Below, in pieces: positions 4,828-56,721 of a stretch of DNA of 64,000 nucleotides. Location: positions 124,001 through 188,000 of the forward strand of contig JAFMAD010000001.1 of assembly GCA_029785195.1 (NCBI GenBank), given 5' to 3'. Origin of the DNA: Nitrososphaerota archaeon. GTDB taxonomy: Archaea > Thermoproteota > Nitrososphaeria > Nitrososphaerales > Gagatemarchaeaceae. A program made the position numbers and the translations under genes. The stretch's first letter is position 1. Every line of letters begins with the position of its first letter. The notes below the pieces were generated by a model that worked only from the letters and a program-made list of their open reading frames with translations, was not told the DNA's origin and searched no databases.

Positions 4828-6582
4828 TCATTCGACCCGCTTCACCTGGCGCCGGTACATCGCGACTATCTCGTCCACCGTAGTCGCGTCCTCGGGGCGC
4901 TTGTCGTCTCTGACCTTCCCCGTGAACTTGGGGAACCGGAGCGAGACGCCTGCCCCTTGCCTTATCCTCCCCATCGCTGCGGTGTGGATAGGCGACAGGG
5001 TGAGCTCCGCCGCGATTATCTCCACTACGAGGTGCGGCCTGAACCATACATCAGGGACCATGTTCGACTCGACCCCAGGCGGCCTGACGTGGCTGGCATA
5101 TGCTTCGAGGAGCCGCGGGAACCTCGCCAGGTTCTCGTCCGAGAACCCCGTCCCCACCTTGGCCACGCTTGTGTAGGCCCCGCTCTTGTCGTCATAGGCG
5201 CCCAGGAGGTACGTCCCGTAGGTCCCTGCCCTGCGCCCCTTCCCGTGGAAGGCGCCGATGACAACCAGGTCGAGTGTGTCTGTCAGCTCGCTCCTGTATT
5301 CCCGTTTGAGCTTGATCCACGCGAACTCCCTGGCGCCCGCCCTGTACGGGGACGCCGGGTCCTTCACCACCAGCCCTTCGCAGCCGTCTGTGATGGCGTC
5401 CTCCATGAACTTCTCCAGCTCGGCGGGGTCCGAGGAGGAGAGCGCTGGGACCGCCCTTGTCCGCGGCGTCTGCTCGACCACCTGCTCGAGCTTCTTCCTC
5501 CTGAGGGCGTAGGGCCTTGGCGTGAGGTCAGACGCCCCGGCCAGGAGGATGTCGAAGAAGTTCAGCGCCACCGGATAGTCCTTGACCGCCTGCTGGATGC
5601 CGTGCTTCCTCCTCCGGTGCATCAGCTCCTGGAAGGGGAGGTACTCCCCCGTGTCCTCGTTGATCGCCACCACCTCGGCCTCGAGTATCCCCTTCCTGAC
5701 ATTCACATGCTCCCTGACCAGGTCGGCGGCGTCCGGGTAGTGCGAGGTGATCACTTCGAGCCTGCGCGAAAATAGCTTGACGACGTCCCCGTCACGGTGG
5801 ATCTGGAGCCTCTCCCCGTCGAGCTTGTACTCTGCGGCCACGGCCTTCATCCCCATCTTCTCGACTATGGCCTGGGCGGAGCTCAGCCGCTCGGCGAGCA
5901 TCGGGCGGATGGGGACCCCTACCTCCACTTTCACCTCGTCGACTCCCTCCAAGCCCTTCGACGCCGCCGTCGCGACGACGAAGCCCAGGTCCGGGTGCAC
6001 GTTGTAGGCCCTCTCGACAGTGGACCTGGATTCCTTCCCCCCCAGGAAGGCGGCCGCCGCGGCGTCTAGGACGGTGTAGTCAGCTACTCCGAGCCTGAGC
6101 TCCCCGGTGACTGTCCTCATGATGTACTTCGCCTCGAGCGGGGTCGCGTCGTTCAGCAGCGATGCAAGCTCCCTGAGCTTCGCTTCCACCGACCCGGAGC
6201 CGCTCTGACGAGCCACCCTCAGCAAGGTGTCGTACACCCGCTTCAAGGTCAGCCCCTCGCTGAAGAGGGTCCCCTGGCTCCTCCTCTTCAGGAGCTCCTC
6301 GGCCGCGGTCCCGATGTCGCCGTGCTTCACATAGGTCGAGTAGACGACGTCCTGGCGCATCCCTGAGGCGGACACCAGAGCCCTCAGCGCGAGCTTCTCC
6401 GCAAGGCCCAGCTCCACCCCCTCGTAGTCAGGCTTCAGCTTCCCCTGGGTCATGTAGACGAGCGGGGCGAGCTCCTCGGAAGGAGCGGACTTCAGCAGGT
6501 CGGCGAGTATCCTGGTAAGCTCGTTTCTCCCTGATATGGCCTCGAGCTCGGCGTACTTCGAAGCCACTTCCGAGTAGTCCAA
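4828..6582 (-). CDS. lig: ATP-dependent DNA ligase
   Basis: Archaeal replicative DNA ligase that seals nicks, including between Okazaki fragments. The N-terminal DNA-binding domain fills roughly residues 1-210, the adenylation motif I KLDGER has its catalytic lysine at 253, and later nucleotidyltransferase motifs (EAEVVAIN, EGLVVKDP, WIKLKREY) and the OB-fold are intact. The 584-residue length is typical for archaeal ligase. The start ATG gives MDYSEVASKYAELEAISGRN, the normal N-terminus of the family. Confidence 0.97.
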   Translation of the reverse strand: MDYSEVASKYAELEAISGRNELTRILADLLKSAPSEELAPLVYMTQGKLKPDYEGVELGLAEKLALRALVSASGMRQDVVYSTYVKHGDIGTAAEELLKRRSQGTLFSEGLTLKRVYDTLLRVARQSGSGSVEAKLRELASLLNDATPLEAKYIMRTVTGELRLGVADYTVLDAAAAAFLGGKESRSTVERAYNVHPDLGFVVATAASKGLEGVDEVKVEVGVPIRPMLAERLSSAQAIVEKMGMKAVAAEYKLDGERLQIHRDGDVVKLFSRRLEVITSHYPDAADLVREHVNVRKGILEAEVVAINEDTGEYLPFQELMHRRRKHGIQQAVKDYPVALNFFDILLAGASDLTPRPYALRRKKLEQVVEQTPRTRAVPALSSSDPAELEKFMEDAITDGCEGLVVKDPASPYRAGAREFAWIKLKREYRSELTDTLDLVVIGAFHGKGRRAGTYGTYLLGAYDDKSGAYTSVAKVGTGFSDENLARFPRLLEAYASHVRPPGVESNMVPDVWFRPHLVVEIIAAELTLSPIHTAAMGRIRQGAGVSLRFPKFTGKVRDDKRPEDATTVDEIVAMYRRQVKRVE

Positions 6583-39959: not shown

Positions 39960-41429
39960 CTACCTGGCAGCGGGGCCGACTTCGATGGACTCGGCGAAGA
40001 ACCTCCTCGTCGTCCCCGAAGCAGGCGAGTCGAAGGGGTCGACGCTCACGACCACTGGGAGGTTCCTGACGGCGTACCCCAGGAGGAGGCACATCCTGGG
40101 AGGGAGCGTCCTGACGATCGCCTTCACCGTGTCGGCGTCGGCCATCGACGCCTGGGCGACGAGCGCGAGGTCTGCGTCGTTGCTGAAGTTGTAGAGGAAT
40201 ATGTTGTCCACCTGGCGGTATATCTTCTGGTCGATGGCGTCGGGCTGGTTGGTCACGAAGACGGTGAAGACCCCGAAGTGCCGCATCCTGGTGATCAGGT
40301 CCTCCCAGTAGGTGTCCCTGAGGTAGAGGTGTGCCTCCTCTGCGAACAGGAATACGGGGGGTATCTTCCTCCTCTCCAGGAGCTCCACGAGCTTCGAGAG
40401 CATGAGCTCGACGACCATCTTCCTGTTCAGGGGGGAGACTCCGCTCAGAGACACCACGAGAGAACCGCCCGACCTGTTCAGGTTGAAGAAGTCCTGCAGG
40501 TCGAACTGTTGGTGGCTGGAGTCGGTGAAGAGGCCGCAGGAGGCAAGCGTGTGGTACCTGGCGAACAGGGCGTCCCTGACGAACTCGTTGCACCTCCACT
40601 GCTGGATCGCGGCCTCGAGGGACGCCAGGGAAAGCTCGTCCCTGTTGTCGAGCTGCTCCCAGATCTTCATGAACTCCCTCAGGGAGGTCCCGGGCATCTC
40701 GAGGGAGTGGGAGAGGAGGCTGGTGATCGGCCTCAGCCCCATGCTAGCCAGCGAGAACTTCAGCTCCCTTCCCGGCCTCATCACGCTGACCTTCCGCCCC
40801 TGCCCCGCGTCGGTGCCGTCGCTGAGCTGTCCGACCGCGGCGTACTCGTCGTTGAGGTCGAACACCACCGAGTAAGCGCCGTTCTCGAGGAGCCCCCTGA
40901 GGAGTATCTTCGCGAGGTGGGACTTCCCCGACTCCTTGCGGCCTGTGATGACCGTGATCCTCCCGTCCAGCGCCTCGGCGGGGACCCCGAAGGACGACTC
41001 GCCGTCCACTGTCCCCACCCTGATGTCCCTCACCCCCAGCGGTGGGACCGCCCCCGCGAGGTCCTCGACCAGCAGCCTGGTCACCGTGGAGCTCGTCCTG
41101 GAGGGCATCCAGTTCGCCCGCGGGGTCAGCCTCCCGTCAGAGATCGTCCCCCGCGCCTTGCAGAGCAATATCCTCATGTCGCGAATTATAGTGGAGATGG
41201 TGGCCATCTCGGTAGGGTCGGAAGTGATCCCGGGGGCTGATGCGGAGAGGACCTCTTCCCGGGCTATCTCCTCCTCGATCCCCTCCACATCGAGGTACCT
41301 CTCGTCGTAGACCTGGAGGACAAGGCTCCTCTGCGGCTCGGTGGCGACGAGGTAGTCCCCGACCCTCACCATCTCCCTCGGGGAGGCGATGACGAGTATG
41401 TCGTCCGACTCCTTCTTGAGTATCTTCAC
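39960..41429 (-). CDS. herA: HerA-family DNA translocase/helicase
   Basis: Hexameric FtsK-HerA ATPase working with NurA to resect DNA ends for recombination repair. The N-terminal HAS-barrel includes VRVGDYLVATEP, Walker A is ITGRKESGKSHL near residue 160, Walker B lies in PPVFLFAEEAHLYL, and the sensor region VFVTNQPDAID and ILLGYAV-like closing strand follow. GTG 41429 follows the nurA stop immediately. The gene lies end to end with the pilin operon, three bases away. Confidence 0.88.
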   Translation of the reverse strand: MKILKKESDDILVIASPREMVRVGDYLVATEPQRSLVLQVYDERYLDVEGIEEEIAREEVLSASAPGITSDPTEMATISTIIRDMRILLCKARGTISDGRLTPRANWMPSRTSSTVTRLLVEDLAGAVPPLGVRDIRVGTVDGESSFGVPAEALDGRITVITGRKESGKSHLAKILLRGLLENGAYSVVFDLNDEYAAVGQLSDGTDAGQGRKVSVMRPGRELKFSLASMGLRPITSLLSHSLEMPGTSLREFMKIWEQLDNRDELSLASLEAAIQQWRCNEFVRDALFARYHTLASCGLFTDSSHQQFDLQDFFNLNRSGGSLVVSLSGVSPLNRKMVVELMLSKLVELLERRKIPPVFLFAEEAHLYLRDTYWEDLITRMRHFGVFTVFVTNQPDAIDQKIYRQVDNIFLYNFSNDADLALVAQASMADADTVKAIVRTLPPRMCLLLGYAVRNLPVVVSVDPFDSPASGTTRRFFAESIEVGPAAR

Positions 41430-41430
41430 G

Positions 41431-42429
41431 CTACGCCCCTCCCTTGAAGCCCCCCAGAGCGATCTTCCGCAACGGGAAGGTGTGCAGCTGCTTCACCCGG
41501 AAGCGCTTTGCCACGTACGCCTTCAGGGCCTGGTCGTCCGCCCGAGAGAAGACAGAGAGGTGGTGAGCCACCTTGAGGGAGTCCGGGTATCCCGACGCGA
41601 AGGCGTCGTTCCAGAGTATCCGCCCGAGCGTGGCCTCGACTGGCTCCGAGCCCGCGACGTCTAGCCTGAAGACGAGGCCGTCGTTGGAGAACTTCGCCAG
41701 GACGGTGCTGCAGCTACCGCCGTCGAGGACGTGATAGGACGGGATGGGGGCGTTCGAAAGGGCGACCATGGCCTCCTCCGAGAGTATCAGGCTGCTCGAC
41801 TTCGAGAACCCCACCAAGGTCCGGCCCCCCCGTCCGCGCGCCAGGGCATGGGCGCCGAACCCCATCGGGTGCTTGAGCGAACCGTCTGCCATGACTATGG
41901 TCTCCCCCTCGCCCGCGGAGAGCGCCTCGACGACCCGCCTCTCGACGGTGTTCCTGATGAACCGCTCGGCGACGGCGTTGTCTGACAGCAGCAGTTCCAG
42001 CTCCGACGACGGGACGTGCGGGAGGAGCCCGCTCAGGCCGGAGGGGTTTGCGTAGACGAGTATCGGTCCCAGCCTGAAGAAACGGCGCAGCGCACCTTCG
42101 TAGGACACACCCACCGCGGTCCTGGCGGCATAGAGGGAGCCCTGCGAAGTCTCCCCCACCAGGACGCACGTCGAGTCGACTGACGCGATTGGCCGCCCTT
42201 CTTGGATAGGAATTATGCACCCAGGGACCAATGACGCGCCCGTCGACTCGAAGTACGGGTACTGCTCCCTCCCGTAGCTGCTGAAGACGAAGGTCCTCCC
42301 GGAGAGCTCGCGCTCCGCGTTCTCGGCGAGCTCGGCGAAGGCCTCTTCGAACTCCCTGGCCAGGGAGTCGAGGGTCGACAGCTGTCCGTCGTGCTTTGGG
42401 AAGGTTGCGATGGCCATCTTGCGCATCAT
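41431..42429 (-). CDS. nurA: NurA 5'-3' nuclease
   Basis: RNase H-fold nuclease partner of HerA. The metal-binding aspartates are in PIASVDSTCVLV and TIVMADGSLKHP, with a third acidic site in the LVFRLDVAGSEPVE region; 332 residues is normal. Start codons ATG 42429, 42426 and 42417 are possible. An AT-rich element and a 13-bp palindrome lie just upstream. Rad50/Mre11, the usual neighbours, are not in the window. Confidence 0.87.
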   Translation of the reverse strand: MMRKMAIATFPKHDGQLSTLDSLAREFEEAFAELAENAERELSGRTFVFSSYGREQYPYFESTGASLVPGCIIPIQEGRPIASVDSTCVLVGETSQGSLYAARTAVGVSYEGALRRFFRLGPILVYANPSGLSGLLPHVPSSELELLLSDNAVAERFIRNTVERRVVEALSAGEGETIVMADGSLKHPMGFGAHALARGRGGRTLVGFSKSSSLILSEEAMVALSNAPIPSYHVLDGGSCSTVLAKFSNDGLVFRLDVAGSEPVEATLGRILWNDAFASGYPDSLKVAHHLSVFSRADDQALKAYVAKRFRVKQLHTFPLRKIALGGFKGGA

Positions 42430-45641: not shown

Positions 45642-46727
45642 ATGAACTTCGCCGAGAAGCCTGTCCTTGTCTTCTGGGAGACGACCAAGGCGTGCCCTCT
45701 GTCATGCGTCCATTGCAGGGCGTCAGCCATCCTGGGGCCGGTCCCCGGAGAGCTGACCACCGAGGAGGGATTGAGGGTCATTGACCAGGTCAGGTCCATG
45801 GGGAACCCGCCCCCTGTCCTCGTCTTCACCGGGGGGGACCCCCTAATGCGGGCCGACCTCCCCGAGCTCGTCGCCCACGCCAAGGGGGTCGGGGTCCCCT
45901 TCGCCGTCTCCCCGGCCGTGAGCGGCAACCTCACCGACGGTTACCTCGCGAGGCTCCGCGACGCCGGGGTGTCGTCCATCTCAATCAGCCTCGACGGCGC
46001 GCGCCCGGAGACTCACGACTCGATAAGAAGGGTCGCCGGGACTTTCGACCGGACCATCGAGAGGATCAGGACGGCGATGGACATCGGGGTAAGCGTCCAG
46101 GTCAACACCGCGATAATGAAGGCCAACCTCAACGAGCTCCCGGAGATGCTCGCCCTCATCAAGGGACTGGGGGTGAAGATATGGGAGCTGTTCTTCCTGA
46201 TACAGGTAGGCAGGGGGTCCGAAGTCGTCGACCTTACCCCCGCGGAGTACGAGAGCGCCTGCAACTTCGCCTACGACGCCTCGCGGCGCGGGGTCGTCGT
46301 AAGGTGCGTCGAGGCTCCCTTCATACGCAGGGTGGCGAGCACCCGGCGCTCGGCGGACGACTACTGGCAGGAAGAGACGTACCTCGCCATGAAGAGAGGC
46401 CTGGGGGGAGCGGAGGGGGGGCTGTCTCCTTCGACCCTGGGGCCGAAAGGGACCCTCGACGGGGACGGGATCGTCTTCGTCGGCCACGACGGGACAATCT
46501 ATCCGGGGGGGCTGCTCCCGGTCCCGCTGGGGAACGTAGCGAAGGACGACCTGGCAACCGTCTATAGGACCGACCCGCTCTTGAAGAAGATAAGGGGGAG
46601 GGCCTTTTCCGGGCCGTGCGGGAGCTGCGGCTACTCCGGGGTCTGCGGTGGGAGCAGGGCGAGGGCCTACGCGAGGTCAGGGGACCCTCTCGGCTCAGAC
46701 CCCGCTTGTGTATTCTCCCAGGCATAG
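45642..46727 (+). CDS. Radical SAM/SPASM protein (NirJ/AhbD/TIGR04053-like)
   Basis: The Fe-S and SAM site CPLSCVHC is near residues 18-25, GGDPLMR follows as the SAM amino-group motif, and a SPASM-type C-terminus carries CGSCGYSGVCGGSRARAYA and a final SDPACVF cysteine. 361 residues suits the heme-modifying branch that includes NirJ and AhbD. ATG 45642 lies 11 nt after the start predicted from GTTAAATAGC. Its place next to the heme operon suggests tetrapyrrole or related chemistry; the exact reaction is unknown. Confidence 0.85.
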   Translation: MNFAEKPVLVFWETTKACPLSCVHCRASAILGPVPGELTTEEGLRVIDQVRSMGNPPPVLVFTGGDPLMRADLPELVAHAKGVGVPFAVSPAVSGNLTDGYLARLRDAGVSSISISLDGARPETHDSIRRVAGTFDRTIERIRTAMDIGVSVQVNTAIMKANLNELPEMLALIKGLGVKIWELFFLIQVGRGSEVVDLTPAEYESACNFAYDASRRGVVVRCVEAPFIRRVASTRRSADDYWQEETYLAMKRGLGGAEGGLSPSTLGPKGTLDGDGIVFVGHDGTIYPGGLLPVPLGNVAKDDLATVYRTDPLLKKIRGRAFSGPCGSCGYSGVCGGSRARAYARSGDPLGSDPACVFSQA

Positions 46728-46743: not shown

Positions 46744-47229
46744 ATGTCCCTGCTCTTCATCCTGGTCCTCTGGGTGCACCTCTTCTCCGCGGTGGTGCTC
46801 GTCGGCGGGTCCTTCTTCATCTGGGTCGTCGTCTGGCCCGCTTCGTTCACGATAGCCGAGGACGAGGCTGAGCGGACCCGCATGGTAGGCAGGATCGCAA
46901 AGCGCTTCGCCTACCTGACCCACGGCTCCGTGGCCGCACTCTTCCTGAGCGGGGCGTACCTCGCGTGGCCCTACGTGGTGGCGCCTGGCCTCGTCCTCTC
47001 GACGCTGAGGGGAGAGGTCCTCCTCGCCAAGGTGGCCGTAGTGGTGCTGACAATATCACTGATGTACGCGAACAACATCTACCACGGCCGGAAGATCATG
47101 CGCCTCGCCGCCCAGGGGCGCCTCGACGACGTGAAGAGGGTGAGGAAGCTGACCCATGCTGCGTCGTACGTCACGCTCGGCCTCCTCGTCGTGATCACGC
47201 TGCTGGGCGCCACACTGGTGGGACTGTAG
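46744..47229 (+). CDS. CopD/HemJ-like four-helix membrane protein
   Basis: A 161-residue membrane protein with four hydrophobic helices; the first helix has LWVHLFSAVVLVGG with a histidine suited to heme contact, and helix 2 carries LTHGSVAALFLSGAYL. LLAKVAVVVLTI and KLTHAASYVTLGLLVV complete it. The layout resembles CopD-domain proteins and also the protoporphyrinogen oxidase HemJ. It starts 14 nt after the radical SAM gene. A part in heme synthesis is suggested by position only. Confidence 0.7.
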   Translation: MSLLFILVLWVHLFSAVVLVGGSFFIWVVVWPASFTIAEDEAERTRMVGRIAKRFAYLTHGSVAALFLSGAYLAWPYVVAPGLVLSTLRGEVLLAKVAVVVLTISLMYANNIYHGRKIMRLAAQGRLDDVKRVRKLTHAASYVTLGLLVVITLLGATLVGL

Positions 47230-47298: not shown

Positions 47299-48198
47299 CT
47301 ACGCGAACCCTCTGTCGGCTGCCAGCGAGTAAAGGCACCTTACGAGCTCTTCCGAGTCGTTGAGGGATTCGCACCTCCTGAAGGTGACCCCCCGCTTGTC
47401 GGCCCAGGACTTTGCCTCGAAGTCGAGGTCGTAGAGCACTTCGAGATGGTCAGAGACGAAGCCGACCTGGGCCACCAGGAAGGCCCTCTTCCCCCGACCG
47501 TATAGCTCCTCCAGATGTTCGAGGATGTCCGGGCCCATCCAGGGCTCTGACGTGTGCCCGGCGCTCTGGAAGCTGAAGGTCCACTCGCTCTTCCCGAGCT
47601 CCTGGGCTATCAGCCTCGAAGTCTCTAGGAGCTGAGCCTTGTAAGGGTCCCCTGACTCGAGTATCCTCTCAGGGAGGCTGTGGGCCGAGAATATCAGCGC
47701 GTATCCCGGAGGGAGGCCTGCTTCGGCCCGCCTCACCCTTCCGGCCCACGCCTTGATGAACAGCGGGTTGGTGTGCCACGACCTCACGAACTCCAGCCTC
47801 ATCTTGCGCGGGGCGGCGGCGTTGGCGTCCTCCACCGCCTTGATGTAAGAACCGACGCTCATCCCCGAGTAATGCGGCGCGAGGGCGACCGCGAGCAGCT
47901 CGTCGGCCTCCTTTGAGACGCTCGACACCACTTCAGAGATGAAAGGCGGGGAGTGCTTCATCGCGGAGAAGACCTTCGTGTCGGACCCACCCTCCCGGAT
48001 CTTCTCCTGCAGGGCCGCACGGGCCCTCTCCGTTATCTCCATCAGGGGGGAAGTGCCTCCGATTGCATTGTACCTTTCGATGAGGCCGTCCACCTCTTCC
48101 TTCGTGGGCTTCCTCCCTCCACGGATGTGTGTGTAGTAGGCCTCGACGTCCCCGAGGGTCCTCGGGGTCCCGTAAGCCATCAGGAGGACGGCTTTCAT
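47299..48198 (-). CDS. hemH: Ferrochelatase (probably coproporphyrin ferrochelatase, CpfC)
   Basis: Inserts iron into a porphyrin. LLMAYGTPRTLGDVEAYYTHIRGG opens the protein, the metal-site His is in FSAHSLPERI, and the Glu of the second site is in FVSDHLEVLYDLD; 299 residues fits the soluble type of Firmicutes and Actinobacteria. ATG 48198 overlaps the hemE stop as ATGA. With HemQ in the same operon, the substrate is likely coproporphyrin III. This is the last gene of the eight-gene operon. Confidence 0.93.
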   Translation of the reverse strand: MKAVLLMAYGTPRTLGDVEAYYTHIRGGRKPTKEEVDGLIERYNAIGGTSPLMEITERARAALQEKIREGGSDTKVFSAMKHSPPFISEVVSSVSKEADELLAVALAPHYSGMSVGSYIKAVEDANAAAPRKMRLEFVRSWHTNPLFIKAWAGRVRRAEAGLPPGYALIFSAHSLPERILESGDPYKAQLLETSRLIAQELGKSEWTFSFQSAGHTSEPWMGPDILEHLEELYGRGKRAFLVAQVGFVSDHLEVLYDLDFEAKSWADKRGVTFRRCESLNDSEELVRCLYSLAADRGFA

Positions 48199-49232
48199 CT
48201 TCGTATCCGCGTCTTCTCGTGGACGTAGTTAACCAGTTCCCTCAGGTTCTCTGGGTCAGTCCCAGGGAGGACACCGTGCCCTAGGCTGAAGATGTGGCCC
48301 CTGCGCCCGCGAGCCCTCCAGAGTATCCCGGAGGCGGCTTCATTCATGGCGGCTCCCCCCACCTGAGCGAGCACAGGGTCCAGGTTCCCCTGCGCGGATA
48401 CGCCGTCCCCGCACCTCCTCCATACTTCGTCGAGCGGGACCCGCCAGTCCACGCTCAGGACTTCAGGCCCCGCCTCATGGAACTTCTCCAGCAGCGGGTA
48501 CGAGTCCGCGCAGAAGTGGATCTTGGGGACTCCCTGCACCGAACGGAAGACCTCCTTGGTGTATGGGAGGACGTGCGTTTCATAGTCTGAAGCCGAAAGG
48601 CACCCGACCCAGCTGTCGAAGAGCTGGACCGCGTCGACCCCGTACCTCACCTGCATCTGGAGGAAGGTGATGACGGTCTCGGTCAGCCTGGTCATGAGCG
48701 CGCGCCAGAGCTCCGGGTCGGAGCACATGACTCTCCTGGTCGTGCGCAGGTCCCGGCTAGGGCCTCCTTCCAGCAGATAAGCGGCCAGAGTGAACGGCGC
48801 CCCCGAGAAGCCGATGAGGGGGACCGAACCGTCGAGCCTCTCTATGGTCCCCTGAATCACCTCTCCCAGGTATGCCATGTCGGCAGAAGGGTCGAGCCTT
48901 CGGAGGGCCGCGACATCGGCGAGCGCGCTGATAGGCTTCAGTATCACCGGCCCGACGTTCTCCCTGATCTCGAGGGGCACCCCGATTGCTTCCATCGGGA
49001 GCATTATGTCTGCATAGAGTATCGCGGCGTCGACCCCCAGCTCTTCGACCGCGCTCTCCACTAGCAACGGGGCGGTCTTTGGGTCCTTCGCCACTTCGAG
49101 GACGCCCCGTCCCCCCTTGAGCTTCATGTAGCTTGGAAGGAAGCGGCCTGCCTGCCTCATGAACCAGACCGGCGTGTATTCCGTCTCCTTCCCTAGGCAG
49201 GCGTCGATGAAGACAGACGTGGACGCCGTCAG
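48195..49232 (-). CDS. hemE: Uroporphyrinogen III decarboxylase
   Basis: Converts uroporphyrinogen III to coproporphyrinogen III. MRQAGRFLPSY is the catalytic N-terminal motif, and YADIMLPMEAIG, GFSGAPFTLAAY, FDSWVG, SVDWRVPLDE and GNLDPVL follow in family order. The usual N-terminus (VFIDACLGKETEYTPVWF) precedes the first ATG at 49160 and has no ATG, GTG or TTG; a CTG at 49232 overlaps the hemL stop as CTGA, exactly like the other junctions of this operon, so it is taken as the start (345 residues). Confidence 0.93.
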   Translation of the reverse strand: MTASTSVFIDACLGKETEYTPVWFMRQAGRFLPSYMKLKGGRGVLEVAKDPKTAPLLVESAVEELGVDAAILYADIMLPMEAIGVPLEIRENVGPVILKPISALADVAALRRLDPSADMAYLGEVIQGTIERLDGSVPLIGFSGAPFTLAAYLLEGGPSRDLRTTRRVMCSDPELWRALMTRLTETVITFLQMQVRYGVDAVQLFDSWVGCLSASDYETHVLPYTKEVFRSVQGVPKIHFCADSYPLLEKFHEAGPEVLSVDWRVPLDEVWRRCGDGVSAQGNLDPVLAQVGGAAMNEAASGILWRARGRRGHIFSLGHGVLPGTDPENLRELVNYVHEKTRIRR

Positions 49233-50521
49233 TCTCCCGCCCCCTTGAAGGCGCGTCCGGCGGCGGCGACGGTCGCGTCGACGTCTTCGTCGGAGTGGGC
49301 GGTCGAGAGGAAGATGGTCTCGAAGGGGGATGGTGGGAGGTACGCCCCCGCTTCCAGCATCATCTTGTGGAACCGTGGGTACGCCCTGTGACTCGACGCC
49401 TTCGCGGTCGAATAGTCCCTCACCTTTCCAGGGCCGAAGAAGAGCCCGACCATCGAGCCCACCCGGTTCACCGTGACGTCGACGCCTGCAGAGTCGGCCC
49501 CCTCGACTATCCCTTCCTCGAGGCGGGCGGAGGCGCCCTCAAGGCGGCGGTATGCGGCCCCGTCAAGCTTGGAGATGGTCGCGAGCCCGGCGGCCATCGC
49601 GACAGGGTTGCCTGAGAGGGTCCCCGCCTGGTATACGGGCCCCTCGGGGGAGACCAGGCGCATGACCTCGGCCCTTCCTCCATAAGCCCCTACGGGGAAG
49701 CCCCCGCCGATTACCTTCCCAAGGCAGGTTATGTCCGGTCGGACGCCGTAGAGGCCCTGGGCGCCCCCTGGGGAGACCCTGAAACCTGTTATCACTTCGT
49801 CGAAGATAAGAAGGGCCCCGTGCTCGGTGCAGAGTTTCCTCAGCCTTTCCAGGAAGCCGGGCTCGGGGAGGACGACCCCCATGTTCCCTGCGACAGGCTC
49901 GACTATAGCGGCCGCGAGTTCGCTGCCGCGGTCGCGGAAGGCCTCCTCGAGGGCGCCCTCGTCGTTGTACGGGAGTGTTAACGCAGCGGACGCCTCTGCT
50001 GGGACGCCGGCGGAAGACGGAAGGTCCTGGGTCGCGAGGCCGGACCCCGCCCGTGTGAGGAACGGGTCCGCGTGGCCGTGATAGCAGCCGTCGAACTTCA
50101 GGAACTTGGCCCTGCTGGTGTACCCCCTGGCCAGTCTCAGGGCGGACATGGCGGCCTCCGTCCCTGAGTTCACGAACCTCACCCTCTCCACGCTGGGAAT
50201 CGAAGAGCAGATGCGCCTGGCGAGCTCGAGCTCAGGGACGGTGGGGGCGCCGAAGCTCGTCCCCCTCCTGACTTCGCCGATGACCGCGTCCACCACTTCT
50301 CTGTCGCAGTGGCCGAGTATCAGCGGCCCCCAGGAGCAGACGTAGTCCACGTAGCGGTTCCCGTCGGCGTCCCAGATGTTTGCCCCTTCCCCTCGAGCGA
50401 TGAACAACGGGGTGCCTCCGACGAAAGAAAAGGACCGCACCGGGCTGCTCACGCCGCCGACCATCACCCTGCTCGCCTCCCTGAAGAGCCGGGCTGATTC
50501 GCTCGTGTCCATGGCTGCCAC
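49229..50521 (-). CDS. hemL: Glutamate-1-semialdehyde 2,1-aminomutase
   Basis: PLP enzyme forming 5-aminolevulinate. VMVGGVSSPVRSF at the start, NSGTEAAMSALRLAR, YHGHAD, LLIFDEVITGFR and the PLP-lysine segment CLGKVIGGGFPVGAYGG are complete; the product is about 430 residues. GTG 50521 shares a base with the hemQ stop (TAGTG); ATG 50512 is three codons later. The hemE CTG overlaps its stop. Confidence 0.95.
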   Translation of the reverse strand: MAAMDTSESARLFREASRVMVGGVSSPVRSFSFVGGTPLFIARGEGANIWDADGNRYVDYVCSWGPLILGHCDREVVDAVIGEVRRGTSFGAPTVPELELARRICSSIPSVERVRFVNSGTEAAMSALRLARGYTSRAKFLKFDGCYHGHADPFLTRAGSGLATQDLPSSAGVPAEASAALTLPYNDEGALEEAFRDRGSELAAAIVEPVAGNMGVVLPEPGFLERLRKLCTEHGALLIFDEVITGFRVSPGGAQGLYGVRPDITCLGKVIGGGFPVGAYGGRAEVMRLVSPEGPVYQAGTLSGNPVAMAAGLATISKLDGAAYRRLEGASARLEEGIVEGADSAGVDVTVNRVGSMVGLFFGPGKVRDYSTAKASSHRAYPRFHKMMLEAGAYLPPSPFETIFLSTAHSDEDVDATVAAAGRAFKGAGD

Positions 50522-51213
50522 TACCCGAGGAGAGCGAGCATGGTGGAGGGGTCCATGCGCCTGCAGGTGAAGATCGGCGTCTCGAGCTCGGTGTACATGC
50601 TCGCCTCCGAGCCCCTCAGCTCCTCCACCAGGGCCAGGAACCGAGCCGGGTCGTCGCCTTCGAAGGCGAGGACGAACTCCTGGTCGTCGAGGCCGAAGGA
50701 GTATCCGGTGTGGATCTTTATGTCCGGGTAGCTGTGGCCGACCTTGAAGTGCTCGGCCATCATCCTTTGACGGTCGACGAACGGGAGCCTGTACCATTCC
50801 CGCTTCTTGATGAACGGGTAGACGAAGATGTACTTCGCGTTCGTCCAGCCGCTCCCGCCTTCCCCCTCCTGGCCAGGGTGGGTGTGGGAGCCGAGGTATT
50901 TGGAGCGCCTCGTCATGGCGAGATACGAATACGGCACGTCGAGGTACCTGCCGACGCCTGTCGCGAGGAGGCTCGACAGAGCCGACTGGAACGCCTCGAG
51001 CTTCGGAGACTCCATGAGTATCATGAAGTCCACGTCCCCCCTGAACCCGACGAGAGAGAAGCAAGACGGGTTGAGCCCGGTGTCAGCCAGGACTCGCAGG
51101 AACTCCCTACGGTGGGCCTCCTTGGAGCCCTCCTCCAGGGACCTCCACTCCCTCGCCGTCTTGAAGAAAGTGTACTTGTAGAACATGACCTCGACCGGTC
51201 CCTCAGGTGCCAC
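50521..51213 (-). CDS. hemQ: Coproheme decarboxylase (HemQ/ChdC, chlorite-dismutase family)
   Basis: Turns coproheme into heme b by two oxidative decarboxylations. YIFVYPFIKKREWYRLPF contains the tyrosine that becomes a radical in relatives, MAEHFKVGHSY supplies the proximal histidine, and YSFGLDDQEFVLAFEGDDP and YTELETPIFTC are typical of the HemQ branch. GTG 51213 overlaps the hemB stop (TAGTG), giving 230 residues. The longer open frame to 51333 mirrors hemB. Confidence 0.9.
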   Translation of the reverse strand: MAPEGPVEVMFYKYTFFKTAREWRSLEEGSKEAHRREFLRVLADTGLNPSCFSLVGFRGDVDFMILMESPKLEAFQSALSSLLATGVGRYLDVPYSYLAMTRRSKYLGSHTHPGQEGEGGSGWTNAKYIFVYPFIKKREWYRLPFVDRQRMMAEHFKVGHSYPDIKIHTGYSFGLDDQEFVLAFEGDDPARFLALVEELRGSEASMYTELETPIFTCRRMDPSTMLALLG

Positions 51214-52196
51214 TAGCGGGACCCCCCCAGCCAGGAGGCCGCTTCTTCTGCGAAGTACGTGATGATGAGGTCGGCCCCCGCCCGCTTTATCGACGTGAGC
51301 ACTTCCATCGCAGCTGCCTTCTCGTCGATCCACCCCTTCGAACCGGCCGCCTTCACCATCGCGTACTCTCCGCTCACGTTGTAGGCAGCTATGGGGACGT
51401 CGAACCTCTCCCTCGCCCTCGATATCACGTCCAGGTAAGGGAGGGCAGGCTTCACCATCACCAGGTCCGCCCCCTCGCCGACGTCAGCCTCGATCTCCCG
51501 GAGGGCCTCCCTCGCGTTCCCCGGGGGCATCTGATACCCTCTCCTGTCGCCGAACGACGGGGCTGAGCATGCCGCTTCCCTGAACGGCCCGTAGAAGGAC
51601 GAGGCGAACTTCGCCGAGTATCCCATGACGAGAGTCCTCTGGAGGCGGCTCTCGTCCAGGGCTTCTCTCAGCGCCCTGACCTGGAAGTCCATCATCGCGC
51701 TCGGCGCGACGACGTCTGCGCCCGCCTTCGCGTATGCCACCGCCGCCTTCCCGAGGAGGGGGAGGGTCTCGTCGTTGTCCACCTGACCCCCCCGGACCAC
51801 CCCGCAATGGCCATGCGACGTGTACTCGCAAAGGCAGACGTCCGCCATCACTATCATGGAAGGGACGGCCCGCTTGATTTCGCGTATGGCGGAGGGGACG
51901 ATCCCGTCCTCGGCGTACGCCTGGGTGCCCGTCTCGTCCTTGGTCTCAGGGATCCCAAAGAGGAGCACGGCCCGGACCCCGGCGTCGGACAGGCGCGCCG
52001 AATAGGCGCCGACCTCGTCCACGGAGTACCTGCTGACCCCAGGGAGCGAGGCGACGGGCTCCACCAGGCCCCTCCCGTAGCGGACGAAGATGGGAGCTAT
52101 CAGGTCAGAGGGGTCGACTGTCGTCTCGCTCATGATGGAGCGGACGGCCTCGGTCCCCCGAAGCCGCCTCAGGCGCAGCGCGCTGGGGGGCGTCAC
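51213..52196 (-). CDS. hemB: Porphobilinogen synthase (5-aminolevulinate dehydratase)
   Basis: Condenses two 5-aminolevulinates to porphobilinogen. The zinc site ADVCLCEYTSHGHCG has the Cys residues of the zinc-dependent class, the two Schiff-base lysines lie in MGYSAKFASSFYGPF and LVMVKPALPYLD, and IAAYNVSGEYAM follows. 327 residues is normal. GTG 52196 overlaps the hemD stop as GTGA. Confidence 0.96.
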   Translation of the reverse strand: MTPPSALRLRRLRGTEAVRSIMSETTVDPSDLIAPIFVRYGRGLVEPVASLPGVSRYSVDEVGAYSARLSDAGVRAVLLFGIPETKDETGTQAYAEDGIVPSAIREIKRAVPSMIVMADVCLCEYTSHGHCGVVRGGQVDNDETLPLLGKAAVAYAKAGADVVAPSAMMDFQVRALREALDESRLQRTLVMGYSAKFASSFYGPFREAACSAPSFGDRRGYQMPPGNAREALREIEADVGEGADLVMVKPALPYLDVISRARERFDVPIAAYNVSGEYAMVKAAGSKGWIDEKAAAMEVLTSIKRAGADLIITYFAEEAASWLGGSR

Positions 52197-52942
52197 CCCC
52201 CACCCCCGCTCAGCTTTGCTAGCTCCTCTATGACTGCGTCGAGGGTGTAGATGGAGGGGGTCAGCGTGTTTTCGAAGCCGTGCTCCTTGGCCGCAGCCTC
52301 GGTCACCGGGCCGACGCACAGCGCCCTCGCGCGCCTGAGCTTCCGCAGGTCTTCTCGTGGGAGGGCGGCGCAGAGCCCCCTCACCGCGGAAGGGCTTGCG
52401 AACACTATGAAGCTCGCGTCCGTTATGCCAGGAGGGGTCCGGATCCCTGGGGGGGTCGTCGAGTAGATCGCCGCCGCGTCCACCGTGAAGCCGCGCTCTT
52501 CCAGGCGGCTCGCCAGACTCCCGTCAGCGATGTCGGCGTGCAGGAGGAGGACCGAGCGGCCGGCGTCGGAGGGGAGTTCGTCTGCCAGGGTGCTCGTCCG
52601 ATATGAAGAGGGGACGAACTTCGCGACCAGCCCCGCGGCCGCCAGGGCGGAGGATGTCTTCGGGCCCACGACGGCGATGGCGGGTTTCCCCGCCCATGGC
52701 AGGCGCAGGCCCAGGCGTGTCGCCCGCTGGACGAAGAATCTCACTCCAGTCGCTGACGTGAACAACAGCCAGTCGTACGAACCGATCCTGCGGAGCGGCG
52801 CGTCGACCCTTGACCAATCCGAAGGCGGGGAGAAGGCGATTGTGTCCACCGCCACAGGGGAGAGGCCGATCCCTTTCAGCCTTGAAGAAAGCTCGGCGTT
52901 CCCCTCCTTTGAGCGTGTGAGGACAACCGTCTTCGAGTTCAA
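52193..52942 (-). CDS. hemD: Uroporphyrinogen III synthase
   Basis: Closes and flips the linear tetrapyrrole to uroporphyrinogen III. The sequence is divergent, as usual for HemD, but the two-domain layout is present: TVVLTRSKEGNAELSSRL, WLLFTSATGVRFFVQRA, AVVGPKTSSALAAAG, then YSTTPPG, IVFASPSAVRGL and CVGPVTEAAAKEHG. TTG 52942 overlaps the hemC stop as TTGA and has a GGAGGG ribosome site just before it. 249 residues. Confidence 0.88.
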   Translation of the reverse strand: MNSKTVVLTRSKEGNAELSSRLKGIGLSPVAVDTIAFSPPSDWSRVDAPLRRIGSYDWLLFTSATGVRFFVQRATRLGLRLPWAGKPAIAVVGPKTSSALAAAGLVAKFVPSSYRTSTLADELPSDAGRSVLLLHADIADGSLASRLEERGFTVDAAAIYSTTPPGIRTPPGITDASFIVFASPSAVRGLCAALPREDLRKLRRARALCVGPVTEAAAKEHGFENTLTPSIYTLDAVIEELAKLSGGGG

Positions 52943-53865
52943 ACCCTCCGCGCTCCTCCCGCTAACAGCTTCGATCCGCCGAGTTCGAGCATCTCCTTGC
53001 CGAGCCGCGCCCCCAGCCCAGCCATCTCTGTGGAGGTGGCGCCGCGCCTGATAACATCGGTCCCGTCGGGAGAGGCGATCACCCCGGTGAGCGTGACGGA
53101 CCTCCCGTTGTAGGCGGCGAAAGCCCCGACGGGGACGTCGCAGTCGGCACCTACCGCCCTGGCGAACTCCCGCTCGCACTCTGTCGCGGCCATGGTCTTC
53201 GCGTCGCTTATCTTAGAGACCAGCCTGATCACCTCGTCGTTCTTCCTCAGCGTCTCCACCGCCAGGGCACCCTGCCCCGCTGCCGGGACCAACTGGTCGG
53301 TCGGGAACCTTTCGGCTGCTTTGGTTCCGATAGAAAGGCGGTCCAATCCCGCCGCCGCAAGGACCACCCCGTGAATCCCAAGCTCGGTCATCTTGCGCAC
53401 CCTCGTTTCGACGTTGCCATGGAGGTCGACGAGGCGCAGGTCCCGCCGCATGTTGAGCAGCTGCGCCTTCCGCCTTACGCTGCTCGTCCCTATGGTTGCG
53501 CCCGTCGGCAGGGCCCCGAGCCTCCGGTCCCCTGCGGACACAAGCGCGTCCCTCGGGTCGCCTCTGGGGGGGGCGGCGGCGATCGTGAGCCCTCCGTCCA
53601 GGTCCACCGACAGGTCCTTCATGCTGTGGACGGCGAGGTCAAGGCTCCCTTCCAGGAGCATCGCCTCGATATCCTTGGTGAAGACGCCCTTGCCGTCTGA
53701 CTCACCTCTCCGCTCCGGAGGGACGGCGTCGCCGCGCGTCCTCACCGGGACCACCTCGAACTCGACCCCCTGCGAGGCGCCTTCGAGTAGGCCCTTGACG
53801 ATGGCGGTCTGGGCGAGAGCGAGGGGACTCCCTCGGGTCCCGATCCGGAGCTTCCTGGAGGTCAA
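52939..53865 (-). CDS. hemC: Hydroxymethylbilane synthase (porphobilinogen deaminase)
   Basis: Polymerises four porphobilinogens. RIGTRGSPLALAQT opens the protein, AVHSMKDLSVDLDGGL, TIGTSSVRRKAQLL and DLHGNVETRVRK follow, and the dipyrromethane cofactor cysteine is in GADCDVPVGAFA. 308 residues is normal. The TTG start overlaps the hemA stop as TTGA. Confidence 0.96.
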   Translation of the reverse strand: MTSRKLRIGTRGSPLALAQTAIVKGLLEGASQGVEFEVVPVRTRGDAVPPERRGESDGKGVFTKDIEAMLLEGSLDLAVHSMKDLSVDLDGGLTIAAAPPRGDPRDALVSAGDRRLGALPTGATIGTSSVRRKAQLLNMRRDLRLVDLHGNVETRVRKMTELGIHGVVLAAAGLDRLSIGTKAAERFPTDQLVPAAGQGALAVETLRKNDEVIRLVSKISDAKTMAATECEREFARAVGADCDVPVGAFAAYNGRSVTLTGVIASPDGTDVIRRGATSTEMAGLGARLGKEMLELGGSKLLAGGARRV

Positions 53866-55112
53866 CTTGCCACTTCCGAAGGGAATATCTCTTCGAGCAG
53901 CCTCAGCTTCTTCTGCTGGCCTTCTGGGGTCGAGTCCCCTTTCACGAACTCCGCGTGGGGAGCCATGAGCCTGCTCACGATCCTCCTGCTCATCGCCTCG
54001 ACCACCTTCCTCTCCCTTTCCGACAGCCTCGGGAGGCGCCGCAGCGCGGACGAGGTCTCGTTCGACCTGACCACTTCAGCCCATCTGTAGATCGAGGCAA
54101 GGGCAGGGTTCAGCCTGGTGGCCGTGAGCCACGCGTTGAACCGAAAAGCCTCTGCGTCCACGGCCCTTCGGACGGTGGCGAGCTTCGCTGCGCCTTCAGA
54201 CCGGCCGGCCATCGAGGCGACGTCGTCGAGGTTCAGGAGCTCGACCGAGCTCAGCGCCTTCACCCCCGGGTCGACGTTCCTGGGGAAACCGAGGTCAAGC
54301 ACCACCCTCCTCCCTCTGTCCGGGACATCGCCCACTGATAAGACGTAGCCAGGACGTCTGGTCGCGCAGATGACAAGCTCGCACTTGGCGATGACGCTCC
54401 GGAGGGACCTCCGGGGGACCCGGACGGAGTTGGGGAAGTGCTTGCTCCCCCCTCGGCGGGCGGTGAGCAGGTGTATCTTCGCGCCGTTCAGCCGGCGCGC
54501 CGCGAGCTTCGCTGTCTCCCCGGTCCCGGCGACTAGGACGTTCGAGGGGTCTCCCCCCAGCCGCTCCAGGGCGAGCCCTAGGGCGACGTCGCTGAGAGAC
54601 CCCCCCTCGGTCGCCATGGCGTACTTCCTGCGGACCCGGACGGCGGAGGTATATGCGGCGTCGAAGAGCGGCGCCAGGACCGATTTAGCGCTCCCTGAGG
54701 CCCTCCCCTGGATGCCCGCCGCCCTGACCTGCCGGAGGATCTGGCCCTCTCCCAGGGCGACCGAGTCTAGCCCCGTCGCGACGCCGAACAGGTGGGATAT
54801 GGCGTCGAGCCCCTCTCTGATGTAAAACCCCTCCGCGCTCTGGTAGCCGAGCGCTCTGACTACTGCTTCGACCGTGCCTTCCCCCGCGACAGCGGTGTAG
54901 AGCTCGACCCTGTTGCATGTCTCCAGGACAGAGTATTCGCGCACCCCTCCGGCCGAGGCGACGTCTTGGACATTCCTGACCCGCTCGGCGAAATTCTCTC
55001 TGAATGAGATGTCGGCTGTCTTGTACGAAGTCCCCACGAGGATGATCCTCGGTACGGAGCCGGCCCGAGGGGGTGAGCCGCGCCTGACCCCGGCTTCCGG
55101 TAGTAGCGCCAA
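53862..55112 (-). CDS. hemA: Glutamyl-tRNA reductase
   Basis: First committed enzyme of the C5 route, reducing glutamyl-tRNA to glutamate 1-semialdehyde with NADPH. ILVGTSYKTADISFREN is the N-terminal block, the catalytic Cys is in VLETCNRVELY, VATGLDSVALGEGQIL and the NADPH-binding VLVAGTGETAKLAA follow, and the dimerisation helices close the chain. TTG 55112 is chosen as the first start after the transcription start predicted from the TATA box at 55144-55151; the ATG at about 55140 would lie upstream of it. Confidence 0.95.
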   Translation of the reverse strand: MALLPEAGVRRGSPPRAGSVPRIILVGTSYKTADISFRENFAERVRNVQDVASAGGVREYSVLETCNRVELYTAVAGEGTVEAVVRALGYQSAEGFYIREGLDAISHLFGVATGLDSVALGEGQILRQVRAAGIQGRASGSAKSVLAPLFDAAYTSAVRVRRKYAMATEGGSLSDVALGLALERLGGDPSNVLVAGTGETAKLAARRLNGAKIHLLTARRGGSKHFPNSVRVPRRSLRSVIAKCELVICATRRPGYVLSVGDVPDRGRRVVLDLGFPRNVDPGVKALSSVELLNLDDVASMAGRSEGAAKLATVRRAVDAEAFRFNAWLTATRLNPALASIYRWAEVVRSNETSSALRRLPRLSERERKVVEAMSRRIVSRLMAPHAEFVKGDSTPEGQQKKLRLLEEIFPSEVAS

Positions 55113-55143
55113 AATGTGGAATCGGCCGAGGGACCAGACCATT

Positions 55144-55151
55144 GTATTTAA
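55144..55151 (-). promoter_or_regulatory. TATA box of the heme operon
   Basis: TTAAATAC on the minus strand, the only AT-rich element upstream of hemA. It predicts transcription starting near 55122, ten bases before TTG 55112. No other promoter-like element is seen within the eight tightly packed genes. Confidence 0.55.
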
Positions 55152-55320
55152 CGTTTGATAGGACTGGCTCAGGACGCGAAGCCGGCCCCCTCCGCCGTAG
55201 GCGGACGAGCTCACAGGACATCCGGGACCCGCAGGGTGCCGCGTGGGCGCGGACAGGCCGGACCAAAGGAGGCGCGGCGTAGGACGCGTCCGAGGGGGGA
55301 CTTCCGTGCGCGGCCCGGGA

Positions 55321-56721
55321 CTATCCGACCGAGACCAAGGACGAGTAGACGTGGCCGTACCCGTAGTAGTCGGAGAGCCCGCGTCCGTCGGACCAGAGGG
55401 CGACGAACCCTGAGCTCCCGACCTGTTCCACGGACGTGAAGTCGCCGTGCCAGGTCATGGGCGTGGACGGGAACCCGGGTTCGCTGCTCAGCAGCGTCGG
55501 CCCCTCCAGTTTGAGGGTGGAGGTCTGATAGGCGGAGAAGTACGCGTCCCAGGCGCCTGTGGAGTTCCCCATCCACGTCACGGCCACGAACTTCCCGCCT
55601 GACGCCAGGGCGGGGGCTTGCACCATCCCTGCGGCAGAGGACGCGACAGGGACTGGTGGGGACCACGACGATTTCCCTGGCTCGAGCCAAGTCAGCAACA
55701 GCGAGTGTCCGTCGTCCGCGGCGTAAGCGACGTAGGGGGTCCCGTCGGCTGCGACAGCCAGCGCGGGGCCGGGGGCGAAGGAGTCATTCCCCCCGACATA
55801 CATCTCGGTCGGGACCGTGTAGTTTGCGACCGTCGACCAGGCTAGCCTCCCCGCCTGCGAGCCTCGGGCCAGGGGCGCGTAGAGGACGCTGATGCTCGAG
55901 TTCCCGGGGGTCGGGTCGGAGTACCCGTAGGCTGAGACGGCGAGTGTCCCGTTGGGGAGGAGCGCGGCGCCTGTTATCCAGCCGTATCGCGTCGGGAAGT
56001 AGTTCGAAGAGGGCCGGGAGAGCGTCATGTTGGGCCTCATTGTCGCCCAGTAGAGGGCGTATGAACTGTCCCAGGCGATGTTCACCGCGCCTCCCTTCGA
56101 CGCCAAGATCCAGGGGCTGTTGAAGCCTATCCCGACTGAGACCGCGCTCTGGGTGAAGTTGAACTGGTCGGAGCTCCCTTCCACCCCCTTGGCCACCATG
56201 ATGGAGGTCGCGAACCCGCCGTCCTGGTAGCAGGCGTATGCGACGTAGACGAGCGTCCCGTTCGGGGCCACAGCGGTCGAAGGGTCGAAGCAGCTGTAGC
56301 TCAAAGGGTCGGTGGAGTTGCTCACGTCCACGGGCGGGGAGTAGCTCTCCCCTCCGTCTGTGGAGGCGGAGAACAGGATCTGAGTCCTGAAGTCCTGGCT
56401 CGAGCTCGGGTCTACCTGCGGAGAGGATGTGGAGTACCCGATCCACGAAACGTAGACCTGCCCGCCGGACCCCACGGCTGCGCTAGGCTGGACCCCCTGC
56501 ACGGGCCCCTGCGCGTACGCCCAAGGGAGCGACGTCCCAGAGGGGAGGGCGTCGACCTGCACGTCCGGTCCCGCTGCCACGCCTGACGCGCGGGGGTGGA
56601 GGTAAAGAGCGGCGACGTATCCGCCCACCGTCAGGACCACGACCAGTGCTGCGGCGGCCCCCAGGACTAGCCTGCGGTTCAGCTGCGGGCCACCCTGGTC
56701 AGGCCTGACGGAGTGCGGCAC
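55321..56721 (-). CDS. Membrane-anchored exported BNR/sialidase-like beta-propeller protein
   Basis: A 466-residue exported protein. An N-terminal anchor (RRLVLGAAAALVVVLTVGGYVAALYL, key hydrophobic residues 17-41) leads into a beta-propeller with Asp-box-like repeats (SASTDGGESYSPP and similar), WMGNSTGAWDAYF and the ending LWSDGRGLSDYYG. Many Asn-x-Ser/Thr sites suggest N-glycosylation. Enzyme activity cannot be assumed, as many BNR proteins only bind ligands. The GTG start may be late or early by a few codons. Confidence 0.78.
   Translation of the reverse strand: MPHSVRPDQGGPQLNRRLVLGAAAALVVVLTVGGYVAALYLHPRASGVAAGPDVQVDALPSGTSLPWAYAQGPVQGVQPSAAVGSGGQVYVSWIGYSTSSPQVDPSSSQDFRTQILFSASTDGGESYSPPVDVSNSTDPLSYSCFDPSTAVAPNGTLVYVAYACYQDGGFATSIMVAKGVEGSSDQFNFTQSAVSVGIGFNSPWILASKGGAVNIAWDSSYALYWATMRPNMTLSRPSSNYFPTRYGWITGAALLPNGTLAVSAYGYSDPTPGNSSISVLYAPLARGSQAGRLAWSTVANYTVPTEMYVGGNDSFAPGPALAVAADGTPYVAYAADDGHSLLLTWLEPGKSSWSPPVPVASSAAGMVQAPALASGGKFVAVTWMGNSTGAWDAYFSAYQTSTLKLEGPTLLSSEPGFPSTPMTWHGDFTSVEQVGSSGFVALWSDGRGLSDYYGYGHVYSSLVSVG

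Follow-up and report, generated by a model that had tools for sequence, protein, structure and literature searches.

An eight-gene archaeal heme operon of the coproporphyrin route that lacks the route's known oxidases

How does an archaeon complete heme synthesis by the coproporphyrin route if it has no recognisable enzyme for oxidising coproporphyrinogen? The question is raised by a stretch of 64,000 nucleotides from a soil archaeon of the Nitrososphaerota (the stretch is called the window here and the archaeon the host), in which the heme genes hemA-C-D-B-Q-L-E-H lie on the minus strand at 47299-55214. We find that this operon is real, is conserved widely among archaea and represents a variant of the coproporphyrin route in which the known oxidases are missing. 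Judged from the families of its enzymes, the operon very probably makes heme b by this route. An earlier, sequence-only reading of the window had proposed the eight genes in this order and on this strand, and reading frames together with Pfam and NCBIfam profiles confirm it:

53862..55214, minus strand: hemA, glutamyl-tRNA reductase (GlutR_N, Shikimate_DH, GlutR_dimer; TIGR01035 205.0 bits, just below the cut-off of 209.55)
52939..53865, minus strand: hemC, hydroxymethylbilane synthase (TIGR00212 299.6 bits, cut-off 164)
52193..52942, minus strand: hemD, uroporphyrinogen-III synthase (PF02602 174.4 bits; start chosen among candidates)
51213..52196, minus strand: hemB, porphobilinogen synthase (PF00490 479.1 bits; start chosen among candidates)
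50521..51213, minus strand: hemQ/chdC, coproheme decarboxylase (PF06778 177.1 bits, 2.4e-52)
49229..50512, minus strand: hemL, glutamate-1-semialdehyde aminomutase (TIGR00713 587.7 bits, against 527.3)
48195..49232, minus strand: hemE, uroporphyrinogen decarboxylase (TIGR01464 328.1 bits, cut-off 302.95)
47299..48198, minus strand: hemH/cpfC, ferrochelatase nearest the coproporphyrin kind (PF00762 268.2 bits)

The description of these genes as a single overlapping unit holds for all junctions but one. Neighbours overlap by 1-4 bases (hemA stop 53862 and hemC start 53865; hemC stop 52939 and hemD start 52942; hemD stop 52193 and hemB start 52196; hemB stop and hemQ start both at 51213; hemE stop 48195 and hemH ATG 48198), whereas hemQ and hemL are separated by an 8-base gap (stop 50521, ATG 50512). 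Apart from the ATG codons of hemH and hemL, start codons were chosen among candidates, of which hemA has four (GTG 55214, ATG 55142, TTG 55112 and GTG 55037). No ATG, GTG or TTG stands where the homology of hemE begins, and its start is likely a CTG that overlaps the hemL stop (CTGA, 49232-49229).

In the pathway that these genes suggest, HemA, HemL, HemB, HemC and HemD would make uroporphyrinogen III, from which HemE would make coproporphyrinogen III. HemH would insert iron into coproporphyrin III and HemQ would decarboxylate the resulting coproheme with peroxide. Comparison with solved structures fits these assignments. The best matches of HemQ are coproheme decarboxylases, at up to 114.7 bits, and entries named only chlorite dismutase match at 28-61 bits; the 61 belongs to TA0507 (3dtz), a solved protein that by its tag comes from Thermoplasma acidophilum and resembles HemQ. 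The host protein keeps the catalytic Tyr, the proximal His and the distal His, which we take to correspond to Tyr135, His158 and His118 in Corynebacterium, and has Phe where six of the seven sampled actinobacterial and firmicute rows have Trp. In the same alignment, a "chlorite dismutase family" protein from a haloarchaeal plasmid (L318 1324-2028) shows Ile at the position of the catalytic Tyr, in a very divergent row whose alignment may be faulty. HemH matches one group of solved ferrochelatases, several of them named coproporphyrin III ferrochelatase, at 190-231 bits, and mitochondrial ferrochelatases at 75-92 bits; a further entry of the coproporphyrin III kind scores 90.5.

The host thus has the markers HemE (above cut-off), HemQ with its Tyr and proximal His, and HemH of the fitting kind; CgoX or CgoN, a further marker, was not found in its assembly, which is 78% complete. 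HemN, HemJ, HemG and HemY all stay below their cut-offs there (HemF was not searched for), which speaks against the protoporphyrin route. The siroheme route differs in requiring AhbC, which was not seen: at E<=1e-20 the host shows a single TIGR04053-like gene, the one that flanks the operon, so that neither AhbC nor AhbD appears above cut-off (AhbA and AhbB were not searched for). The proposal of a coproporphyrin-route operon in an archaeon is sustained.

The pathway of Firmicutes and Actinobacteria (HemE-CgoX-CpfC-ChdC) uses the same kinds of HemE, HemH and HemQ, here gathered in one operon; it differs from the present case, which has an archaeal host, eight genes in the arrangement hemACDBQLEH, and no CgoX or CgoN found. 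Among archaea, Thermoplasma and Picrophilus were described as having hemE and hemH with no hemF/N or hemG/Y, by a route called unclear in an excerpt of that study (PMC3004389, Storbeck 2010). The host resembles them in gene content, with hemE and hemH present and no known oxidase found. For ammonia-oxidising archaea, an excerpt of PMC4010524 says that the heme gene set needs characterisation. In the literature under open licences (CC0, CC BY, CC BY-SA), no paper joins ammonia-oxidising archaea with coproheme, which is a weak negative.

Is the operon a peculiarity of this archaeon? A search of named genomes with aligned HemQ sequences gave 139 relatives, and the loci of the best 80 were compared. 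Among these 80, the closest HemQ has 84% identity to that of the host and the third, from Ca. Gagatemarchaeum stordalenia, 67%; many top-ranked relatives are labelled Thaumarchaeota, Nitrososphaerales or Nitrososphaerota. By these relatives the host belongs in Nitrososphaeria, near Gagatemarchaeaceae. All eight genes stand on one strand in the order A-C-D-B-Q-L-E-H at 43 of the 80 loci (19 labelled Thermoplasmatota, 13 Nitrososphaerota, 2 Methanobacteriota and 9 without a phylum in the title), and at least six genes stand in order at 58. Among the host's kin the operon is thus not the unusual find that it had been taken for. The remaining 22 loci comprise one actinobacterial locus with the genes out of order, 12 Chloroflexota or Nitrospirota loci limited to Q or Q-E-H, and nine with fewer than six genes; several of these nine stop at a contig end, and L180 holds only A-Q-E-H in 20 kilobases (kb). 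Within the host's own order, 24 of 32 HemQ loci show hemQ with at least part of the operon. In the other eight (families f2, f3, f8 and f10) no hemE or hemH was found near hemQ, and a genome-wide search of the same eight genomes found no ferrochelatase. The HemQ proteins of these eight genomes (L042-L048 and L050) lack the distal His.

Trees were built from chosen rows (63 for HemQ, 42 for HemH). In the HemQ tree, nearly all archaeal operon members group with Chloroflexota and one actinobacterial row, separate from the other actinobacterial and firmicute rows; one archaeal locus (L061, genome G052) falls outside. Several deep joins in this tree are weak and long branches meet. The HemH tree shows two kinds of ferrochelatase in operons of Nitrososphaeria. 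The second kind, found at L182, L184, L195 and L198, groups with the Thermoplasmata kind at 88/88, and its gene is reversed in L195. For HemQ, the phylogeny proposed in the sequence-only reading as a check sets nearly all archaeal operon rows apart from the firmicute ones. Exchange between archaea and bacteria, in one direction or the other, is likely.

The oxidation step was followed through 61 genomes (the host and 60 relatives), 32 of which have a completeness of 90% or more and a contamination of 5% or less, and through 50 further genomes reached via the HemQ loci, HemJ and CgoN being searched for in the first 61 only. Because the host assembly (1.6 megabases in 70 contigs) is 78% complete, gene absences in the host itself are weak, and the 60 relatives carry the claim of a missing oxidase. 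TIGR00562, the model for HemY and CgoX, is above cut-off in none of the 61 genomes. Weaker matches at E<=0.001 occur in 31, the host included, nearly all over 30-75 positions at the start that binds flavin adenine dinucleotide, and the highest of them reaches 63.3 bits (G043). HemJ (PF03653) and CgoN/YtpQ (PF07285) were found in none of the 61; HemN_C (PF06969) matches six at E<=0.001, one of them above cut-off (G060) and none in the host; HemG (PF12724) matches nine, seven above cut-off and again none in the host. The absence of CgoX noted at the locus therefore extends to these 60 relatives, and the genome-wide search once suggested as its check finds no CgoX, HemG or HemJ above cut-off in the host assembly.

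Several replacements can be set aside accordingly. HemJ proper, CgoN and HemN were not found in the host by profile, and HemG, above cut-off in seven of 61 genomes other than the host, is no general substitute, although it could serve in G016, G027 and G033, where it stands above cut-off alongside HemQ and HemH. Clustering of flanking reading frames (families in at least four loci) yielded mainly shadow frames, a divergent hemD and stretches of local synteny; it brought up no other candidate for the oxidase. Of the 50 further genomes, seven exceed the TIGR00562 cut-off, one with internal stops. CgoX genes stand beside the operon at L181 and L258, and at L181, which belongs to Ca. Gagatemarchaeum stordalenia, the gene adjoins hemA. 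The archaeal operon can thus be served by CgoX and usually is not. In G075 (L262, L336), the CgoX gene holds three internal stops and a TIGR04053 gene lies in pieces, through decay or assembly error.

What, then, performs the oxidation? Two genes that are convergent with hemH in the host offer themselves, one for a radical S-adenosylmethionine (SAM) enzyme:

45642..46727, plus strand: TIGR04053 radical SAM/SPASM protein, AhbD-like; candidate oxygen-independent coproheme decarboxylase (TIGR04053 439.3 bits, against 395)
46744..47229, plus strand: CopD-like four-helix membrane protein; candidate coproporphyrinogen oxidase (PF05425 35.1 bits, against 32.1)

For the radical SAM protein, AhbD, the heme b synthase of the siroheme route, is the nearest named family (TIGR04545, 259.7 bits, the best model after its own). 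The CxxxCxxC motif and four C-terminal Cys are invariant in nine sequences. A genome of the host's order, G039, has an Ahb-type cluster with AhbC-like and AhbD-like genes beside hemD, hemC, hemL and hemA, and its AhbD-like protein scores 440.8 bits with the AhbD model and 399.1 with TIGR04053, so that the two families appear near each other. On plasmids, the TIGR04053 genes of the haloarchaea Haloferax larsenii (whose protein scores 501.6) and Halobaculum adjoin genes for halocyanin, a cbb3-type oxidase, which we would read as NorB-like, and multicopper oxidase. On Thermus plasmids TIGR04053 occurs in the vicinity of genes for nitrite reductase and cbb3-type oxidase or of a gene for multicopper oxidase, and in Deinococcus ficus its neighbours include cobA and a nitrite/sulfite reductase gene. 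Under the same open licences no paper mentions TIGR04053, again a weak negative.

Haloferax volcanii, as described in excerpts of PMC5746218, offers a parallel. Its ahbD (HVO_2144) has nirK, norB and blue copper genes in its vicinity, surroundings that those of the haloarchaeal TIGR04053 genes appear to resemble in gene order. Deletion of ahbD strongly slowed anaerobic growth only, and added heme rescued the deletion fully in dimethyl sulfoxide respiration and partly in denitrification; loss of PitA, its ChdC, slowed aerobic growth (PMC5746218, excerpts). One cell thus pairs an aerobic ChdC with an anaerobic radical SAM enzyme. The same excerpts find no uroD (hemE), cgoX or cpfC in H. volcanii; the host differs in having hemE and hemH. 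A review has the coproporphyrin route end with AhbD in some organisms and with HemQ in others (PMC7242693, excerpt). By these likenesses, the TIGR04053 enzyme is probably an oxygen-independent coproheme decarboxylase, and it more likely backs up HemQ than replaces CgoX. In another haloarchaeon, a Halorussus vallis plasmid carries hemH side by side with a gene annotated hemG, protoporphyrinogen oxidase (L320 3989-6417). With the haloarchaeal ChdC PitA, this hints that parts of the coproporphyrin route occur in haloarchaea too.

Four helices are predicted for the CopD-like protein; His12 lies in helix 1 and Lys96 in helix 3, and both are invariant in 13 sequences. When its profile was aligned by hhalign with one built from seven HemJ-type genes of named plasmids, the alignment ran full length with a probability of 83.0% and with the His and Lys in register, a pair that presumably has a role in HemJ. 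The score was 33.5; none of 100 local shuffles exceeded 27.2, and the reversed profile gave 12.0. No solved chain matches either profile at E<=1, and no plasmid relative of the window protein was found at E<=1e-5. HemJ (PgdH2), a protoporphyrinogen oxidase, and the CopD-like protein both match the Pfam CopD model: a Rhizobium HemJ exceeds its cut-off, and two of the seven HemJ-type plasmid genes, which immediately follow hemE in Sphingomonas and Sphingopyxis, carry no annotation other than "CopD family protein", so that the borders between the families are soft. The CopD-like protein would accordingly seem to be a remote HemJ relative. A very different CopD-type protein, with 25% identity, lies between the TIGR04053 gene and hemA in G052 (L061 4948-5442).

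Gene neighbourhoods tie the two candidates to each other and, less often, to hemH. We call a CopD-like gene strong above 150 bits; there are 19 in the 61 genomes and 13 in the 50, 32 in all. Of these, 23 have a TIGR04053-type gene as their immediate neighbour, whether tandem, convergent or divergent; in the first 61 genomes these neighbours are above the TIGR04053 cut-off, and in the second set five were scored with the model (387.6-421.3 bits, one just below the cut-off of 395). Seven adjoin both the radical SAM gene and hemH (host, G008, G068, G076, G079, G083 and G098). Four Thermoplasmata loci (L332, L337, L338 and L340, of G068, G076, G079 and G098) have a tight rSAM-copD-hemH operon, and at L219/L342 (G083) the pair lies between hemE and hemH; hemH of these five genomes is confirmed by Pfam. 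In G068, G076 and G098 this hemH differs in kind from that of the main operon, and in the genome of L338 no hemH is seen at L215, where the main operon lies. Across the 61 genomes, 14 have both TIGR04053 and a strong CopD-like gene, five only the former, three only the latter and 39 neither (Fisher 2.5e-7, relatedness ignored), the AhbD-like protein of G039 counting as a TIGR04053 hit. The association of HemH with CopD (12/14/5/30) and with the radical SAM gene (13/13/6/29) is mild, p 0.007 each, again with relatedness ignored.

From this linkage and the remote homology to HemJ, the following mechanism may be drawn. Without oxygen, the CopD-like protein would oxidise coproporphyrinogen III with a quinone as electron acceptor, the mode of action presumed for HemJ (likely with plastoquinone, by an excerpt of PMC7133116), and the TIGR04053 enzyme would decarboxylate coproheme after HemH, like AhbD. 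With oxygen, HemQ would do the last step, and oxidation would be non-enzymatic or due to an enzyme not yet recognised. Genes for A1-type heme-copper oxidase and for cytochrome bd are reported from some genomes of Gagatemarchaeaceae (PMC10640624, excerpt), which makes life with much and with little oxygen both plausible. We lean slightly towards a coproporphyrin route in which the radical SAM enzyme, the CopD-like protein and HemH would form an oxygen-independent set for its last three steps. That the CopD-like protein is itself the coproporphyrinogen III oxidase, passing electrons to quinone, we propose tentatively and with somewhat more doubt than belief. More speculative still is a portable oxygen-free cassette of the three genes in two archaeal phyla, in which the CopD-like protein would represent a new HemJ-related class of oxidase.

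A number of observations weigh against these proposals. The radical SAM protein falls below the AhbD cut-off of 500 and, like TIGR04053 generally, has CGGS where the AhbD-like protein of G039 has CGGC; the likeness to H. volcanii ahbD (HVO_2144) is one of gene order. The CopD-HemJ homology is remote, with 17% identity and a probability of 61.9% under other settings. PF03653 fails to match the CopD-like protein, and most HemJ invariants (Arg25, His30, Glu47, Arg118, Asn121, Glu122) are not evidently common to both. Nine of the 32 strong CopD-like genes have no adjoining radical SAM gene, one of them having it 2.9 kb away on a short contig. A second CopD-like gene of the host (L325, host C44:76400-88900, at 6009-6488) has no radical SAM or heme gene found in 12.5 kb, and likewise none was found near a second copy in G008 (L326). 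The radical SAM protein of L337 is the one just below cut-off (387.6 bits), those of G075 and of the second locus of G033 hold internal stops, and five further neighbours in the second set (G064, G071, G073, G075 and G090) were recognised by tblastn with the window protein only. Two of the seven CgoX genomes also carry a strong CopD-like gene, so there is no mutual exclusion, and an either-CgoX-or-CopD pattern was not seen among the genomes examined. Finally, a strong CopD-like gene is missing from 12 of the 24 genomes that carry both HemQ and HemH (the host is one of the 24). This distribution excludes CopD as a universal oxidase: the CopD/HemJ-like gene is the better of the two candidates first named beside the operon but is missing as a strong copy from half of the genomes that would need it.

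The same distribution bears on a simpler explanation, which we consider unlikely: that there is no dedicated oxidase, coproporphyrinogen being oxidised by air in an aerobic cell or by an unspecific flavoprotein, and that CopD and the radical SAM enzyme do something else. Ten of the 24 genomes have neither a strong CopD-like gene nor TIGR04053 or CgoX above cut-off, among them the near-complete G004, G023 and G025, of which G004 is a 100% complete single contig. The pair is therefore dispensable, an extra, and another oxidase or autoxidation must serve in these cells. They probably live with oxygen, since HemQ needs peroxide, and autoxidation of coproporphyrinogen in air is reported in an excerpt of the paper on CgoN (PMC10965808). 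Against this, seven of the 50 further genomes keep CgoX (counting the copy with internal stops), so that the oxidation step is worth an enzyme, and the linkage of rSAM, copD and hemH would be left unexplained.

It is similarly doubtful that the CopD-like protein, instead of being an oxidase, assists the radical SAM enzyme in the membrane by supplying electrons, handing over heme or exporting it. CopD does go with the radical SAM gene (23 of 32) more than with hemH (7 of 32), and only three of the 42 genomes without above-cut-off TIGR04053 have a strong CopD-like gene. Yet hemH is the third member in those seven loci, the His/Lys pattern is common to CopD-like proteins and HemJ, and none of the TIGR04053 genes viewed in Thermus, Deinococcus and haloarchaea has an annotated CopD neighbour. 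Nor do plasmids hold a relative of the window's CopD-like protein at E<=1e-5.

That a CgoX gene sits in the unassembled part of the host genome is very improbable. The 78% completeness of the host assembly and the CgoX gene beside hemA in Ca. Gagatemarchaeum stordalenia would allow it; the empty survey of 61 genomes, about half of them at least 90% complete, argues against it, and tblastn of the L181 CgoX protein finds no match in the window. Least probable of all is a radical SAM gene that encodes the absent coproporphyrinogen oxidase, as the sequence-only reading had allowed: only adjacency speaks for it, but the named family closest to it acts as a coproheme decarboxylase, L181 and L258 have it together with true CgoX, and it was not found in the complete genome G004 or in other operon-bearing relatives.

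Elsewhere in the window, a 466-amino-acid protein is encoded upstream of hemA (55321-56721). Its start looks like an export signal, it has no Pfam or NCBIfam match, and a 76% identical copy occurs in G008. Two adjoining genes at 39960-42429 resemble, by eye, a HerA-type ATPase and a NurA-type nuclease.

The conservation of the operon over Nitrososphaerota and Thermoplasmatota suggests a standing archaeal coproporphyrin route, so that this route is not bacterial only. The operon also points to two neighbouring genes whose biochemistry is directly testable. Should the CopD-like protein prove to be the oxidase, members of a membrane family now named for copper resistance would gain a function in heme synthesis.

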